Below are positions 2,359 to 19,992 of a DNA stretch of 24,848 bases, in pieces. The stretch is from a virus. Every line of letters starts with the position of its first letter. Position 1 is the stretch's first letter. The translations under genes and the position numbers were made by a program. The stretch spans positions 1-24,848 of the IMG/VR virus record IMGVR_UViG_3300044675_000629, one strand, 5' to 3'. The notes under the pieces were generated by a model that was not told the DNA's origin, made no database searches, and worked only from the letters and a program-made list of their open reading frames with translations.

Positions 2359-4978
2359 CTACCTGCCAACAGACTATCAGTCCTTTATCGGAATTTCACG
2401 TTATGCCCGTTGGCTTGAGGAAAAGGGTCGCCGTGAGAACTGGGGTGAAACAGTTGACCGATACATGAAGAACGTAGTGTCCCCTCTGACCTTTGCATCT
2501 GACCTTAAGATTTACGGAGAGATCGAAGATGCTATCCTTAGCCTAGACGTTATGCCTTCCATGCGGGCTGTAATGTCTGCTGGGACTGCACTAGAGCGTG
2601 ACAACACAGCAGGATACAACTGTTCCTATATGCCTGTAGACGATCCACGATCCTTTGATGAGGCTATGTTCATTCTGTTGTGTGGCACTGGTGTAGGCTT
2701 CTCTGTAGAGCGTCAGTTCATCAGTAAGCTACCAGAAATCCCAGAACAACTAAACCCTGTCTCTGCTGTACGTATTATGGTAGAAGATAGTAAAGAGGGT
2801 TGGGCAGATGCCTTGCGTAAGGTAGTCTCGTATCTCTATGAGGGTTATATCCCAACTTGGGATGTGTCAAAAGTCCGTCCTGCTGGTGCTAAGTTGAAGA
2901 CATTTGGTGGTCGTGCTTCTGGGCCTGCACCTCTGATTGACCTGTTTAACTTTGTTGTTAAAACCTTTGTTGCTGCTAAAGGTCGTAAGTTGTCTAGTAT
3001 TGAATGTCACGACATTATGTGTAAGATTGGTGAAGTTGTTGTAGTTGGTGGTGTTCGTCGTTCTGCTATGATCTCTCTGTCTAACTTGTCTGATGATCGT
3101 ATGCGTCATGCTAAGTCTGGGGCATGGTGGGAGAACAATCCACAACGAGCCTTGGCTAATAACTCTGTAAGCTACACTGAGAAACCTGACGCTGTGTCTT
3201 TCCTTCGTGAGTGGGCAGCTTTGGTAGAGAGTGGTTCTGGTGAACGTGGTATCTTCAATCGTCAGGCATCTAAGAAACAGGCAGCTAAGAATGGTCGCCG
3301 TAAGACTGACTTTGAGTTTGGCACTAACCCATGCTCCGAGATTATTCTGCGTCCTTACCAGTTCTGTTAAGAAGATAGCAGAAGTAAAACAAGGTGAATT
3401 GCTGGGAAGCCTAAGTGCATAGCATATGGTAATCAGCAGCCAAGCCCATCAGGGATGATGTGGAAGGTTCAACGACTAGGACGAGAAACTAGAACAGTTA
3501 ATAATGTCCATACACCCAAGCGGGTGGAAGTGCCTTGCCCCTACTAACACTAGGGTGATGATATAGTCTGATCTGCATGGAAACTTGCAGGAGAATGGAG
3601 TTATAATGAAGCGTAATCGTGAAGGAAATCTTGTTGGTGAGAATGCCCGTGAATGCTCTAGTAGCACTTGCAACACCATCTTTACTCTCACAAGTAAGAC
3701 AGTTACGCTTTGCCCTCGTTGTAATTCCGAGCGTGTTAAGTCTGCGGCCCCTGAGAAAAGAATGTTTGCGAGAGCAAAAGCTAGGGCCAAAGAACGTGGA
3801 CATGAGTTTAATTTAGAACTCTCTGACATCCACATCCCAACCCATTGTCCAGTCTTGGGCATTGAACTTGTTGCTCATAAAGGCAGGTCTGGCGGAAATC
3901 CCAATAGTCCAGCCCTTGATCGTGTTGACAACAATAAGGGTTATGTGAAAGGCAACGTAATGGTTGTTTCTCACCGAGCAAATATGATGAAGGTTGACGC
4001 TTCCCCAGAGGAGTTAATCAAGTTTGCAGAATGGGTTTTAACACGCTACCGCTGATAACTAGCGTCTATCAGTGAACATAAATGAATCTAACAGAAGTTG
4101 TTGTACGTGCTACCGATAACCTTGAGACACTAGAACAAAAGGTTCGTATCGCCACTATCCTAGGGACTATCCAATCCACTTACACCAAGTTCCCTTACTT
4201 GCGGGACATTTGGACGGAGAATACTGAAGAAGAACGTCTGCTAGGTGTTTCTCTTACGGGGATTATGGATAACCCTCTAATGACTACAAAGAATGCTGGT
4301 CTATCTCAAACCTTGGAGTACCTAAAGAATGTCGCTATTACTACTAATGCTGAGTGGGCTGAGCGCCTTGGCGTTCCTGTATCTGCTGCTATTACTTGTG
4401 TTAAACCATCGGGAACCGTCTCGCAACTTGTTGACTCAGCCTCAGGTATCCATGCTCGCCATAGTGCTTACTACATTAGGACTGTTCGAGGCGACAATAA
4501 AGACCCTCTTACACAGTTTATGAAAGACCAAGGTATCCCTTGTGAACCTGATGTAATGAAGCCAGCACAGACGAGCGTGTTTAGCTTCCCTATGAAGGCT
4601 CCTACGGGTGCAGTGGTAACGGCTGACCTTAGTGCCATCGACCAGCTAGAGATGTGGTTGGCCTATCAGCGTAGTTGGTGTGAGCATAAACCATCTGTCA
4701 CTATTAACGTAAGGAAAGATGAATGGTTTGAAGTAGGTGCTTTCGTCTACAAACACCTTGATGAGATGTCTGGCGTATCTTTCTTGCCATACAACGAACA
4801 TACTTACCAACAAGCTCCCTACCAAGAAATTGATAAGGATACTTACGAGAAAGCACTAGCCCTAATGCCAAAAGGTATTGATTGGTCTAAGCTTTCAGAG
4901 TATGAAGTAGAGGATAACACATCAGGATCACAGACCTTCGCTTGTGTGGGTTCTTGTGAGATTGTTGATGTGACGTAA
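2348..4978 (+). CDS. nrdJ: Class II (adenosylcobalamin-dependent) ribonucleoside-triphosphate reductase, intron-split gene: join(2348..3367,4085..4978)
   Basis: Two exons give a 637-residue protein: exon 1 of 340 codons and exon 2 of 297. The start is ATG 2348 because GAGGAAAG lies seven bases upstream; an in-frame ATG at 2318 lacks this. The sequence follows the monomeric Lactobacillus-type RTPR (about 740 residues): SRYARWLEEKGRRE near the N-terminus, the first active-site cysteine in NCSYMP (C92), GGVRRSAM, GIFNR, then NPCSE with the presumed thiyl-radical C329 and E331, and C340 eleven residues later, the spacing of C408/C419 in RTPR. A C-terminal CVGSC (C627, C631) is the likely shuttle pair that takes electrons from glutaredoxin or thioredoxin. 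The enzyme makes dNTPs from NTPs, independent of oxygen but needing B12. Without splicing, translation stops at TAA 3368-3370 and the product would lack the C-terminal barrel. Confidence 0.93.
3368..4084 (+). ncRNA. Group I self-splicing intron (subgroup IA-like) in nrdJ
   Basis: 717 nt between TGT 3365-3367 and AAT 4085. Exact joining restores the conserved reading FC|NLTEVV. Helices found by eye: P1, exon TTCTGT 3362-3367 with guide GCAGAA 3378-3383, with the required U-G pair at the splice site; P3, CAAGG 3390-3394 with CCTTG 3533-3537; P4, TGCTG 3400-3404 with CAGCA 3434-3438; P6, CATCA 3447-3451 with TGATG 3456-3460; P7, GACTA 3474-3478 with TAGTC 3564-3568; P7.1, GGAC 3479-3482 with GTCC 3506-3509 and an inner AACT/AGTT; P7.2, CACCC/GGGTG 3513-3526; P8, CCCTA/TAGGG 3539-3555; P9, CTGCA/TGCAG 3573-3590; a 3' hairpin CTGATA/TATCAG 4052-4072; possible P10, AGAT 3373-3376 with ATCT 4086-4089. 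The intron ends in G4084, the expected terminal G. P7.1/P7.2 are a mark of IA introns. Subgroup assignment is less certain than the intron itself. Confidence 0.93.
3606..4055 (+). CDS. Intron-encoded HNH-type homing endonuclease
   Basis: 149 residues from ATG 3606, with GGAG 3597-3600 upstream; a TTG at 3585 inside P9 is a weaker alternative. N-terminal cysteines C17, C22, C36 and C39 (the last two as CPRC) look like a zinc-binding knuckle. The C-terminal half carries PALDRVDNNKGYVKGNV (103-119) and VSHRANMMK (121-129), a nuclease motif common in phage HNH endonucleases, followed by a helix ASPEELIKFAEW. The expected role is to cut intronless nrdJ alleles near the insertion site so that repair copies the intron. 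It is placed after P9, outside the catalytic core, as usual for group I intron ORFs. Its stop codon falls inside the 3' terminal hairpin 4052-4072. Cleavage site and activity are inferred. Confidence 0.85.
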   Translation: MKRNREGNLVGENARECSSSTCNTIFTLTSKTVTLCPRCNSERVKSAAPEKRMFARAKARAKERGHEFNLELSDIHIPTHCPVLGIELVAHKGRSGGNPNSPALDRVDNNKGYVKGNVMVVSHRANMMKVDASPEELIKFAEWVLTRYR

Positions 4979-5027: not shown

Positions 5028-5104
5028 CTACCACTAGCTCAACTGGATAGAGCAAGAGCCTTCTAAGCTCTAGGTTCCGTGTTCAACTCACGGGTGGTAG
5101 ACCA
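5028..5104 (+). tRNA. tRNA-Arg (anticodon UCU), CCA encoded
   Basis: The full cloverleaf is readable: acceptor CTACCAC 5028-5034 with GTGGTAG 5094-5100, D-stem GCTC 5037-5040 with GAGC 5050-5053, anticodon stem AGAGC/GCTCT 5055-5071 with loop CTTCTAA (anticodon TCT at 5062-5064), T-stem CCGTG/CACGG 5077-5093 with loop TTCAACT, discriminator A and a genomically encoded CCA at 5102-5104. It reads AGA codons. AGA is rare in GC-rich alphaproteobacteria, so this tRNA may help translate phage late genes (inferred). Confidence 0.96.
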
Positions 5105-13606: not shown

Positions 13607-15958
13607 TTAGTTAAAGGCGGCTTTCATTTGTCCACCACGTCTACGAGCATCAATAACGGCACTCTTAGTTGCACTTGTAATCTGTGGCATAAGTTTAGCC
13701 ACTTCAGCACGAATAGCGGCAGGATCAGAACCACCAGCTACATTGATATTATTAACTACGTTTACTGAACCAGAACTACCTTCAACAGAAACACCTAGTT
13801 TACCATTTTTACCTCTTTTCAAAGGCATAATAGCTTCTGGGCCAGCTTCACCCATCAAACCAGTTTTACCACCCGCCATAGGGAAGTAAGTAGGGCCACC
13901 AACAACACCACCATTAGCATAGGCTTGGATTTGCTTACCAGCACTAAAAGCACCACCATCAGCAAAACCTATTGCACCTACAATAGAATTAACCATCCGT
14001 TTGACAACAAGAATCTCATACAGTTGTGCGATAACAGCCGTTGCCATGTCTTTAAAGGCATCCTTGACACTTTTTGTCCCGTCAACCATAGACATGAAAG
14101 CCTCTGTCATGCTAGACCTCAGAACGTCCCCTATCTCTTTGTGTTGAGACTCCATTTGCTCTAAGAGTTCTTTCTCTTTGTTAATGGCTTCAAGACGAGC
14201 CACAGCACCTTGGATAGCTGCCTCAGAGTATTGCTTATCAGAGCCTTGGATAGCTTGCATAACCTCTTTGTATGCTTCTGATGTACCAAGCAGTTCTTTC
14301 TCAAGTTCTACTCTCTTTAGAAGTGCTTCAAGAGCATCTGGACTAGCAACACCCCCGCCACCACCACCGCCATTACCTGTGCTTGGTAACATTGGGATAC
14401 CATTTGGCCCAATCATGGGCATACCTGCACCAACATTAGCACCACGAGAGCCATATCTTTGCATGGCTTGCCCGCCAGCGGAAAACTCAAATTGAAGTTG
14501 CTTTAACCTATCACTAGCAGCAAGATTAACCATGTTTGTAGCAGCACTTAAGGATATGCCCAAGTTGTTGGCAAGTACTCTGGCGGCTTCTGCTGCCCTA
14601 TTGATACCACCTTCGATATTTACAGTGGAAAGGCCCAGAGCATCAAGGTGTGCTTCACCAATACTCTTAGCAATTTCAGCCCTCTTTTTAGACTCCTCAA
14701 CGATAGTTGACAAGATAGAGATACCTAATGCTCTCTTTGCTTCTAGGTCACGAAGACCTTGTTCATTCTGAGCATCAATACGGGCGTTATTCATCTCCCG
14801 CGCCTTAGCAAGTCCAACTTCTTGTTGATAGGCCACTAGTTCAGCTTTAGCTTTTTCTACAGCAGCCTTAGCCGCTAGCTCTTGTAGTGAAGCAATCCTT
14901 TCCACCTGAACGATGTTTGGAGTAAGGTCTGTACCCATATATTCTTGAGTAGCTGCATATTCGCTGGCCGCTATAACTGCTGTTTCGTAGGCAACTGTCA
15001 GTCTTGAAAGCTCTGCTTGCGCTGAATTTAGGGTTTTGTTGAACTCAGGGTTAAAGGCTTTAATATTTTCTAGTCTGAGTTCTTCAGTGGCATCTCTTAA
15101 TTCTTTAAACGCATCTACAGTTTTTTGAGTTTCTTCCTTAGTCCTAGTCATATAGGCAAGAATACCAGTAATGATAGGGATAGCAATACCAAGACCAGTA
15201 AAGACACCAATCATGGCCATTGATTTTGATAACTGCGCGCCTAGACCTGCAAGCTGGGTCATCTGCTGACCAAAAGCAACAAAGAAGTTAGTCCCAGACT
15301 GGACTTGAACTGCTAAGTCACCTACTTGATAACCGACTTGCTGAGTAACTAGACCAAATTGGTTTGTGTAACCTTTAGTCTGGTTTACACCCCTTCCAAA
15401 AGTAGAGAAAACACCAGTGCCTGTGGCCATCTCTTGGTTTAGTTTATCAAGGCTAATTCTTTGTTGCTCAGCAGTAATAATACCAGCCTTACGGGCAACA
15501 GAAAGGTCGTTGAGTTCTTTAGAGTAAATCTGCATAGCCAAGTGGCCTTCGACAAACTTATTCTTAAGTCTTTCTTCTTCTGCTGCTGCCCTTGCAGTTT
15601 CTGCTGCTTCTCGTTTCTTTTGTTCACTAACTTGTTTGTTAAGGGCAATAGTTTCACGACGAGCTTGTGCTAAAGCTTTCTCCTCGTCTTTCGCTTGTTT
15701 AGCAGCAGCAGTCGCTTCTTTCTGAGCCTTGTTAGCAGCTAAAATAGACTTTGTTACGCCATCAACTTGTTTACCATAAGCACCAGAGTTCTTTGCTAGT
15801 TTTTCCAGAGAGGCGTTTAGCTGGGCGTCACTTATCTGATTTCTTTCTCTAGCTTTGATGAGCTTCTCGATATTATTCTTTAACGTCTGCGTAGTCTTAA
15901 TGGCAGTGAGAATACCTTTAGTCTCTACCCCAATAGTTAAAAAAATGTCATCAGCCAT
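13607..15958 (-). CDS. Tape measure protein
   Basis: 783 residues from ATG 15958 (MADDIFLTIGVETKG), chosen because GGGGGTGG lies just upstream; an in-frame start at 15982 lacks it. The N-terminal 150 residues are Lys/Glu/Ala-rich coiled coil. A hydrophobic central part (about 220-275, MAMIGVFTGLGIAIPIITGILAY) could insert into the host membrane. A run of seven glycines (about 530-537) is followed by a second helical region, and the C-terminal LMGEAGPEAIMPLKRGKNGKLG is a family hallmark. The protein sets tail length; at the usual 1.5 angstrom per residue this predicts roughly 115-120 nm (inferred). It overlaps the T part of the upstream chaperone gene by 8 nt. Confidence 0.93.
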   Translation of the reverse strand: MADDIFLTIGVETKGILTAIKTTQTLKNNIEKLIKARERNQISDAQLNASLEKLAKNSGAYGKQVDGVTKSILAANKAQKEATAAAKQAKDEEKALAQARRETIALNKQVSEQKKREAAETARAAAEEERLKNKFVEGHLAMQIYSKELNDLSVARKAGIITAEQQRISLDKLNQEMATGTGVFSTFGRGVNQTKGYTNQFGLVTQQVGYQVGDLAVQVQSGTNFFVAFGQQMTQLAGLGAQLSKSMAMIGVFTGLGIAIPIITGILAYMTRTKEETQKTVDAFKELRDATEELRLENIKAFNPEFNKTLNSAQAELSRLTVAYETAVIAASEYAATQEYMGTDLTPNIVQVERIASLQELAAKAAVEKAKAELVAYQQEVGLAKAREMNNARIDAQNEQGLRDLEAKRALGISILSTIVEESKKRAEIAKSIGEAHLDALGLSTVNIEGGINRAAEAARVLANNLGISLSAATNMVNLAASDRLKQLQFEFSAGGQAMQRYGSRGANVGAGMPMIGPNGIPMLPSTGNGGGGGGGVASPDALEALLKRVELEKELLGTSEAYKEVMQAIQGSDKQYSEAAIQGAVARLEAINKEKELLEQMESQHKEIGDVLRSSMTEAFMSMVDGTKSVKDAFKDMATAVIAQLYEILVVKRMVNSIVGAIGFADGGAFSAGKQIQAYANGGVVGGPTYFPMAGGKTGLMGEAGPEAIMPLKRGKNGKLGVSVEGSSGSVNVVNNINVAGGSDPAAIRAEVAKLMPQITSATKSAVIDARRRGGQMKAAFN

Positions 15959-16690
15959 TAGCCACCCCCATATAGACTCCATCTAACCTAATAATTGCTT
16001 CTATCTCCCAAGCATCTATTGGTGTTTCAGTCAGTTCTTTCCACGCTTTTATCTGTTCAAAGGTAATTGGGTTAGGCCCAGAAAACCCTGCACTTCTTCT
16101 GTTACTCAACGTCAAAAAGGCAGACCAGACGTGACTTAAGATCATTGGGAAATCTGTCGGGGGTTCCAATGCTTCAAGTCTACGTCCAATCTGCCTTTCT
16201 ACTTGTTCAAGATGCTCTCGTTCTGTAATGCCGTCCTTGTCAGGCTTGTTGAGCTTAAACTGATGTTCAGCCCACTCGCACAACTGACAAGTTAGGCTTT
16301 CATAAAACCCAGAATTTCTTCCGATGCTTGTTCAATTTGAGCCTTGATCCAAAATACTTTATCGTAAACCTCACGAGCTTTATCTAGAGACAACTTAGGC
16401 TTCTCACCACTAAAGGTAATATTCCATTCTTTTGTTGTCTTAGCTAAGCTATCAAGGGAGATTTCCTCAATTTCTTCTGCTGTAATATCTTTAGTCCCTT
16501 TGCCTTGCATCTTCTTAAGACGCTTATTAGTCATCTCATGCAGAACTTTCTTGTATTCTTTAGAGTGAGGGGCAAATAGGGTAATCGTCATGTCACTCTT
16601 GTCTTCATTCTTAAGCACTTCATCAGTGGCGGGATGCTTAAGCGTAACAACAATAACTTCAGATTTAGGGGTCAGGTCTAGCAAGTCCAT
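15951..16690 (-). CDS. Tail assembly chaperone GT fusion, made by -1 frameshift
   Basis: The 0 frame runs 16690-16304 (129 codons, ending in LGF). After a one-base slip at 16304-16310 the -1 frame continues 16304-15951 as YESLTCQLCEWAEHQ and on, about 246 residues in all. The -1 frame has no stop between the slip site and its end, and no good own start: the only candidate, TTG 16283, lacks a Shine-Dalgarno sequence. The T part contains FPMILSHVWSAFLTLSNRRS and a C-terminal ITFEQIKAWKELTET..AWEIEAIIRLD, typical of the second tail chaperone. By analogy with lambda gpG/gpGT, the fusion binds the tape measure (T domain to tube protein) during tail assembly and is absent from the virion. Confidence 0.85.
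16292..16690 (-). CDS. Tail assembly chaperone G
   Basis: 132 residues, with AAAAGG nine bases before ATG 16690. Sequence: MDLLDLTPKSEVIVVTLKHP, a short beta domain, then a Lys/Glu-rich helical part (EYKKVLHEMTNKRLKKMQGKG; EREVYDKV-like end with KAREVYDKVFWIKAQIEQ) finishing EEILGFMKA before TAA 16292-16294. It lies between the tube and tape measure genes, the conserved place of gpG-type chaperones, and shares its first 129 codons with the GT fusion. The usual large excess of G over GT is controlled by the low frameshift rate (known for lambda; not measurable here). Confidence 0.85.
   Translation of the reverse strand: MDLLDLTPKSEVIVVTLKHPATDEVLKNEDKSDMTITLFAPHSKEYKKVLHEMTNKRLKKMQGKGTKDITAEEIEEISLDSLAKTTKEWNITFSGEKPKLSLDKAREVYDKVFWIKAQIEQASEEILGFMKA
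16304..16310 (-). promoter_or_regulatory. Programmed -1 ribosomal frameshift site GGGTTTT
   Basis: On the - strand the 0 frame reads CTG GGT TTT ATG, so G-GGT-TTT is a perfect X-XXY-YYZ heptamer allowing both tRNAs to slip back one base (GGG, TTT). It is 9 nt before the G stop codon, and the -1 frame is open into the T region. No strong hairpin follows directly; lambda's site also lacks a strong one. Position and frame match the G/GT mechanism of long-tailed phages. Confidence 0.88.
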
Positions 16691-16726
16691 TCGGGTTATC
16701 CTTTTAGGTTCTGTCGGGGGTTTTTT

Positions 16727-16794
16727 GTCGGGTCAGTAATTAGTGCGAGGAAGCATAAGACCCGACACCTATGCTTCCTCTACCCTAGCTAGGG
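16727..16794 (-). promoter_or_regulatory. Structured intergenic RNA: hairpin with possible pseudoknot, plus palindrome
   Basis: Between the tail tube stop and the chaperone start (115 nt). On the - strand, GAGGAAGCATA pairs with TATGCTTCCTC (coordinates 16747-16757 and 16770-16780), 11 bp with a 12-nt loop. Nine loop bases, TGTCGGGTC (16759-16767), are complementary to GACCCGACA downstream (16726-16734), which would form an H-type pseudoknot. A second copy of CCCGACA (16712-16718) could compete. A perfect 12-bp palindrome CCCTAGCTAGGG (16783-16794) lies just after the tube stop codon. No U tract follows the hairpin, so a simple intrinsic terminator is unlikely; processing, attenuation or translational control are open. 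Confidence 0.6.
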
Positions 16795-16805
16795 ATTCTT
16801 AACTA

Positions 16806-17717
16806 TCAAGCAGCACGGGTGATGACCAAGTTAGAAAGCTCAGTTGCATCATACAAAGCCACGAAGGACATATTGATGATACGGCTGGTTGGGCCATCTA
16901 CAGGGACATCAGCACTGTTGATCTTAATACGGGGGAATAGGAAGGTGTAGGCGTTAGTCCCAGTTGGGTCATTTACCGACACTTCAAGTTCTGTTTCAGT
17001 CTCATTCAAGAAGCGGTTAATCAGAGCCGTATCTTCAAAGTAAGCTGTAATAGTGCCTTCAATCTCTGCGCGACCATATTCAAGCGAAGGGGCAGAACTG
17101 TCACCAATCACGAAAGTAGGGGCAAAGGAGTTATTCAAAGTAAAGTCAAGACCAGTTACGATAGCTACAGCAGAGCTTGAGCCTACGTTACCGATAGCAA
17201 TGTCACCTGAATAAGCATCAAATGGGGCATTGTTGGCAGCGGCTGTCTGGGTCTTCTGAGTTGCGCTGACAGTCATATCCTTACCAACCATACCGAAGGT
17301 CGTAGTGACCATCTGGTTAGGTGCTAGAGAGATTGCCATAGTCGATACTGTCATACCAGTAAACAGACGGGCTTGGTCAATGTCAGCAGCGTAATCTTCA
17401 ATAGACAAGAACTTGGGGGTAACCCCAACCTTTAGCACGTTAGTAGAAAAGGTGTTGAGCATAGCCGACTCTAGGAAAGCGTCATAAACACCATCACGAA
17501 GGTCAACAACAATATCACCAGCTACTTGACGATTACCATGACGATCAACACGAGGCATACGATCAGCCTGAATGTCATTGCCAGCAACACGATCTTTAGT
17601 CAAATTCAGCGAGTGAGTAGAGAAAGGAAGGTTAGTGAAGTTACCAGCAGGCGTAGTACCGAAGGTTGCTTCTGTAACAAACGATAGGCTGGAACGAGAG
17701 CCTTGTGAAAAGGGCAT
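16806..17717 (-). CDS. Major tail tube protein
   Basis: 303 residues, AGGAG upstream of ATG 17717. The N-terminal SQGSRSSLSFVTEATFGTTPAG (4-25), GNRQVAGDIVVDLRDGVYDAFLESA, the middle GMTVSTMAISLAPNQMVTTTFGMVGKDM and the C-terminal DVPVDGPTSRIINMSFVALYD are features of the siphophage tube protein family (Phage_tube_2 type). Hexamer rings stack on the tape measure to form the tail shaft. It is the most strongly expressed tail gene in such phages, and the structured intergenic region after it may help keep it more abundant than the chaperones (inferred). It follows the tail terminator gene, as usual. Confidence 0.9.
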   Translation of the reverse strand: MPFSQGSRSSLSFVTEATFGTTPAGNFTNLPFSTHSLNLTKDRVAGNDIQADRMPRVDRHGNRQVAGDIVVDLRDGVYDAFLESAMLNTFSTNVLKVGVTPKFLSIEDYAADIDQARLFTGMTVSTMAISLAPNQMVTTTFGMVGKDMTVSATQKTQTAAANNAPFDAYSGDIAIGNVGSSSAVAIVTGLDFTLNNSFAPTFVIGDSSAPSLEYGRAEIEGTITAYFEDTALINRFLNETETELEVSVNDPTGTNAYTFLFPRIKINSADVPVDGPTSRIINMSFVALYDATELSNLVITRAA

Positions 17718-19896: not shown

Positions 19897-19946
19897 TTGG
19901 ACAAATCCTTGTGAGATTACTATTATGTTCTTTTATAATTGGGTTA

Positions 19947-19972
19947 TACCCAAGGCTTTTACACCTTGGGTA
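19947..19972 (-). terminator. Hairpin downstream of the major capsid gene
   Basis: TACCCAAGG and CCTTGGGTA (19947-19955, 19964-19972) form a 9-bp stem with an 8-nt loop, 20 nt after the capsid stop codon. No U tract follows on the - strand, so it is more likely a partial terminator or an RNA-stabilising 3' structure than a full stop. Downstream genes have no obvious own promoter and need read-through. Confidence 0.55.
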
Positions 19973-19992
19973 AACCATTGTTTTAGGTTAGA

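Follow-up and report, generated by a model that had tools for sequence, protein, structure and literature searches.

Between the tail tube gene and a probable tail-assembly chaperone gene, a large group of marine phages carries a previously undescribed RNA element. It is composed of a small hairpin (P0), a longer hairpin (P1, 11–13 bp, with the loop GUCGGGU) and two to four CCCGA-type repeats in an unstructured, G-poor linker. From the sequence comparisons, it is considered rather probable that the loop of this structured late-mRNA element swaps between a proximal partner and the chaperone start site and in this way controls chaperone translation.

Setting and parts of the element

The window, 24,848 nt in length, is a fragment from the record of an uncultured phage, and the element lies on its minus strand. 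The closest named phage was found to be Roseobacter phage CRP-6, the representative of a marine group that is abundant and has RCA roseobacters as hosts (PMC6918029). Upstream of the element, a tail tube protein of 303 aa is encoded (16806–17717, minus strand; Pfam PF18906 Phage_tube_2, E = 2.5e-47; PHROG 290). Downstream is a 132-aa ORF (16292–16690, minus strand) without a family match, which on the basis of its position is probably a gpG-type tail-assembly chaperone gene; the next ORF (15951–16283) encodes a tail-assembly chaperone (PF23812 Phage_TAC_18). A slippery GGGTTTT is present near the 3' end of the probable chaperone gene (about 16300–16310, minus strand), 16 nt ahead of the stop; the −1 frame past it runs on without a stop for 100 codons, reaching into the TAC_18 ORF, and the site occurs in the window clade only. 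The window also contains a group I intron (Rfam RF00028; 3358–3590, plus strand) that splits a ribonucleotide-reductase-like gene, an HNH-like ORF beside the intron (3585–4055, plus strand), a tRNA gene (Rfam; 5028–5101, plus strand) and, after the capsid gene, another long hairpin conserved in the window clade (GGTTTACCCAAGG/CCTTGGGTATAACCC, about 19940–19981, minus strand), the sequence of which differs among relatives.

Read 5' to 3' on the minus strand, the element begins with P0, in which CCCU and AGGG enclose the loop AGCU (palindrome CCCTAGCTAGGG, 16783–16794). P1 follows, with the 5' arm GAGGAAGCAUAGG (16768–16780) and the 3' arm CUUAUGCUUCCUC (16747–16759); 11 bp are formed between GAGGAAGCATA (16780–16770) and TATGCTTCCTC (16757–16747), or 13 bp when the G-U and G-C pairs adjoining the loop are counted. 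The loop GUCGGGU (16760–16766) is the seed of the pseudoknot helix S2. Nine loop bases, TGTCGGGTC (16767–16759), are exactly complementary to GACCCGACA (16734–16726), within which lies the proximal partner ACCCGAC (16727–16733), the 3' strand of S2. An alternative partner, the middle copy CCCCCGACA, is located at 16712–16720 and is followed by the Shine-Dalgarno sequence AAAAGGA of the chaperone gene (16699–16705). The original prediction had described an 11-bp hairpin with a nine-base loop complement, a second CCCGACA (16718–16712) and a 12-bp palindrome (16794–16783), all of which were found exactly where it had placed them, and its loop lengths of 2 and 12 nt are correct for the 11-bp/9-bp version. 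A further copy, absent from that prediction, was found in the spacer between AAAAGGA and the chaperone ATG, where ACCCGA (16691–16696) includes CCCGA at 16695–16691.

When both strands of the window were scanned for exact hairpins of 9 bp or more with a loop-downstream complement of 8 nt or more, this hairpin-plus-complement arrangement was unique. The nested folding energy did not differ significantly from that of shuffled sequences (z = −0.86) and was excluded from the evidence; the fold energy alone being unremarkable, the case rests on conservation. P1 starts about 27 nt past the tube stop, and the dimensions of P1 and S2 resemble those of coronavirus frameshift pseudoknots. Phage pseudoknots stimulate frameshifting elsewhere, for example in the capsid gene of Listeria phage PSA (PMC5009743), but a role in stimulating programmed frameshifting or readthrough of the tube gene is highly improbable here, with the hairpin so far beyond the stop codon, a widely varying gap length and, in 138 of 170 gaps, both other frames already closed ahead of P1. 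The closed alternative frames and the intergenic position of the element largely refute this reading.

Conservation and covariation in related phages

Relatives were gathered by protein-guided scans, which gave several hundred loci, and 236 distinct tube-chaperone gaps of related marine phages were collected. The hairpin with the GUCGGG loop and a partner 3' of P1 is kept in 236/236 of these gaps, a count of phylogenetically dependent sequences and so not of independent events. When the search relied on the DNA pattern and took no account of the proteins, 67 contigs were obtained, and the same tube-chaperone junction was present in 64 of the 66 examined. With a covariance model of P1, one copy per record was detected in 14 long phage records, and no second copy elsewhere in the genome was found in these records or in the window. 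A direct DNA search for the element among named phages gave no match, CRP-6 having been reached via protein only, and no relatives of the tube protein were found in a bacterial genome collection. The length of the gap between the tube and chaperone genes varies widely, and the conserved portions are limited to the loop, its partners and short flanks. Extra genes are located between the hairpin and the chaperone start in L128, L246 and L502 (HNH homing-endonuclease-like in L128 and L502), and a repeat of about 25 nt (TTACGCTATGACGTAAAGATCATAA) is present in one or two copies between the proximal copy and the chaperone RBS in L018, L030, L031, L045, L058 and L308.

All 12 of the P1 pairs counted show compensatory changes, with both sides changed (220 cells, 57 distinct hairpins), and 99.6% of P1 cells are paired, compared with 65.6% in shuffles and 49–61% with slid partners. 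P1 also presents 236 G-U cells versus 6 A-C cells (82 hairpins); the opposite strand would carry mismatches where the element strand has G-U. This asymmetry indicates that the functional molecule is the minus-strand RNA, the same that encodes the tube and the chaperone. GC-rich inverted repeats might also suggest an intrinsic terminator or a DNA-level operator, but the sequence just 3' of P1, GCACUAAUUACU, has no U tract, in agreement with the earlier claim that this is not a plain terminator, and the G-U/A-C asymmetry is that of the RNA of one strand; both readings are largely refuted and can be given hardly any weight. At the place of P0, a hairpin of 4–9 bp was found in 230 of the 236 distinct gaps, with the loops AGCU (146), ACGU, GNRA (GCAA, GUAA, GAAA) or UUCG. 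The palindrome is a second, small tetraloop-type RNA hairpin and not a protein-type palindrome.

The loop and the proximal repeat likely form an H-type pseudoknot, with an S2 of about 7 bp stacked on P1. The loop abuts the 3' arm of P1 and begins 1–3 nt after its 5' arm, and the predicted geometry has a 5' loop of 1–3 nt, 0 nt between the helices and a third loop of mostly 8–16 nt. The linker is G-poor (4–5% G), and the first CCCGA-type match, to which the proximal partner was assigned, lies mostly 8–16 nt from the twelfth stem pair. Since the loop core is invariant, the S2 core gives no covariation signal. The seventh S2 pair was found to be U-A in 194, G-C in 6, G-U or U-G in 9 and A-U in L415; the base 5' of CCCGA changes together with loop position 7 in several lineages, and the tree indicates that the G loop at this pair arose more than once. 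Loop changes without a matching partner change were found in L276, L282, L389 and L529, and no covariation was detected between loop position −1 and the base after CCCGAC. Copies number two to four per gap in 169 of the 170 gaps counted, and the changes in their CCCGA core comprise 86 C>T and 2 A>G versus 11 that are incompatible with loop pairing. Being mostly C-to-U, these changes retain G-U pairing with the loop; in L184, each of the three copies has a different C-to-U. Judged on these alignments, the covariation is decisive for the P1 stem and modest for the S2 helix. The RNA pseudoknot with alternative partners that was originally predicted is well supported, by a stem that covaries in related phages, an invariant loop and a complementary partner present in every gap. 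The statement that the element matches no known feature type is likewise well supported, and no family of Rfam 15 matched it at gathering or permissive thresholds.

The copy at the chaperone start site and proposed translational control

Within the stretch made up of the chaperone AUG and the 12 nt preceding it, 5–7 contiguous bases can pair with the loop in 236/236 gaps, compared with 114 of 962 other gene starts (12%) in the same loci, some of which are orthologs of the CCCGA-start gene candidates considered below. The start-site copy is of the CCCGA/CUCGA type, between the Shine-Dalgarno sequence and the AUG, and among the window genes listed, CCCGA is found at the chaperone start only. In distant phages with abutting genes, and likewise in L436–L445 and L400, the hairpin and the start-site motif are absent together. 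It is mainly this co-occurrence that led to translational control being proposed. The switch between two pairings envisaged originally has to be amended in one respect: besides the second CCCGACA, the conserved RBS copy is the functionally telling alternative partner. Protection of the mRNA 3' end alone, with the hairpin or pseudoknot blocking 3' exonucleases and stabilizing the tube message, would suit a strong structure right after an abundantly needed gene, and a conserved hairpin, though a different one, is found after the capsid gene too. Nevertheless, any hairpin would serve for this, and the invariant loop and the RBS copy would be left unexplained; as the sole function it is quite unlikely.

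In the favored cis switch, pairing of the loop with the proximal repeat (the pseudoknot) would leave the chaperone start free, while pairing with the RBS copy would close it by blocking 30S binding, and the upstream repeats would compete for the loop. Chaperone translation would be kept low and adjustable relative to that of the tube encoded just upstream, and the hairpin and pseudoknot may additionally shield the tube message at its 3' end. The duplex energy of the proximal pairing is about −11 kcal/mol versus about −8 to −10 kcal/mol for most RBS copies, and the RBS-paired state is therefore expected to be a minority absent a trigger. By default, chaperone translation would thus be no more than partially repressed, with a putative trigger or kinetic control. 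Control of the tube-to-chaperone ratio is the best-supported purpose that can be inferred, and few chaperones per many tube subunits fits gpG/gpGT biology (PMC5009743). This ratio in siphophages has mostly been discussed in terms of frameshifting within the chaperone gene, and the element is a candidate for a second layer, acting on initiation.

A point against the cis switch is that the RBS motif is found at other genes without a hairpin in cis. In eight element-bearing genomes, a small sample in which starts were called by a simple procedure, CCCGA was found in the Shine-Dalgarno-AUG spacers of 14 starts versus 2.24 expected, the chaperone being excluded, and of the remaining non-overlapping permutations of these five letters most were depleted in those spacers. 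In five phages that lack the element, among them phages of the same host group such as CRP-7, which is from the same host strain, CCCGA starts were at expectation (4 versus 3.46). The enrichment being tied to hairpin genomes, a shared factor accompanying the hairpin is suggested, either the loop acting in trans or a phage protein. Tentatively, the GUCGGG hairpin, in the abundant late tube message or in a processed 3' fragment, may pair with and repress the CCCGA starts of several phage genes, the chaperone being targeted in cis and the others in trans, with the proximal repeats as a safety catch. Such action is in line with the enrichment in genomes with the element and not in those without it, with the recurrence of the start motif at orthologous genes (the early 183-aa gene, a 77–81-aa gene and the post-capsid gene) and with an invariant loop beside a fast-changing stem, as would fit several targets. 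However, the targets differ among genomes, no further target is present among the starts identified in the window, and pairings of 5–6 bp are weak without a chaperone protein. It is possible, though doubtful, that the phage possesses its own trans-acting antisense module, located in the 3' region of the late tube message, in which the loop would shut CCCGA-start genes, early ones included, as late mRNA accumulates, the pseudoknot setting the threshold.

The uncharacterized early 183-aa gene (MARYTMEMVLEYA...; L549–L562, G001, G005, G007, CRP-6 and G008) has CCCGA or CTCGA at its start in several lineages; no family match was found for it, and its structure prediction (pLDDT 39) was unusable. 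In the CRP-6-like clade, no GUCGGG hairpin accompanies the CCCCGAC that the post-capsid gene carries in its Shine-Dalgarno-AUG spacer (19 of 85 distinct gaps); these loci are L082 (CRP-6; 960–990) and the post-capsid gaps of L084–L125, L133, L157, L160, L282 and L314.

The protein alternative is a phage or host protein that recognizes CCCGA or the pseudoknot near starts, with the hairpin nucleating or modulating its binding. An operator of this kind would resemble the action of T4 RegA or gp32, it is consistent with an RBS motif shared across genes, and the layout of a pseudoknot plus unstructured repeats overlapping the RBS is like that of T4 gene 32 (PMC3014915). No candidate protein was found, though, and a protein operator alone leaves the exact complementarity of loop and motif and the G-U-compatible changes unexplained; this reading is held to be rather unlikely. 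For the element itself, the abundant ocean group to which it belongs (CRP-6-type, PMC6918029) has a cultured phage and host. With its strong covariation, its single copy and the corresponding sites at several gene starts, the element clearly adds a testable case to phage RNA regulation.

Comparison with known systems

The element resembles the RBS-sequestering SAM-II and preQ1 riboswitches as an H-type pseudoknot at a bacterial start region, but it lacks an Rfam match and conserved ligand-pocket bases, and a riboswitch was rejected for want of the latter. Its helix sizes are similar to those of frameshift pseudoknots in the structural genes of phages and viruses, but the element is intergenic, 3' of a stop codon and in a region of closed frames. 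In the repZ/repA pseudoknot of IncI and IncL/M plasmids (ColIb-P9), a hairpin loop pairs just 5' of the downstream start to control its translation, the pairing activates, an antisense RNA competes at the loop, and there is coupling to a leader peptide. The present element is likewise intergenic, with a loop that can pair beside the downstream start (here in 236/236 gaps), but its partners are repeated, whereas repZ/repA has no repeated partners. The autoregulatory pseudoknot of gene 32 in T4, T2 and RB69 is similarly a phage mRNA pseudoknot 5' of a start, followed by unstructured repeats that reach the RBS (PMC3014915). It precedes an SSB gene, whose product binds it, and in a 2010 review it was described as possibly the only viral pseudoknot in translational autoregulation (PMC3014915). 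Unlike in T4 gene 32, the repeats here complement the pseudoknot's own loop, P1 is long, an extra hairpin is present and the gene is different, the downstream gene preceding the Phage_TAC_18 chaperone ORF and not being an SSB gene. By analogy, the element would represent mRNA start-site control by a pseudoknot, working like the T4 gene 32 leader and IncI repZ, in a gene context common to neither.
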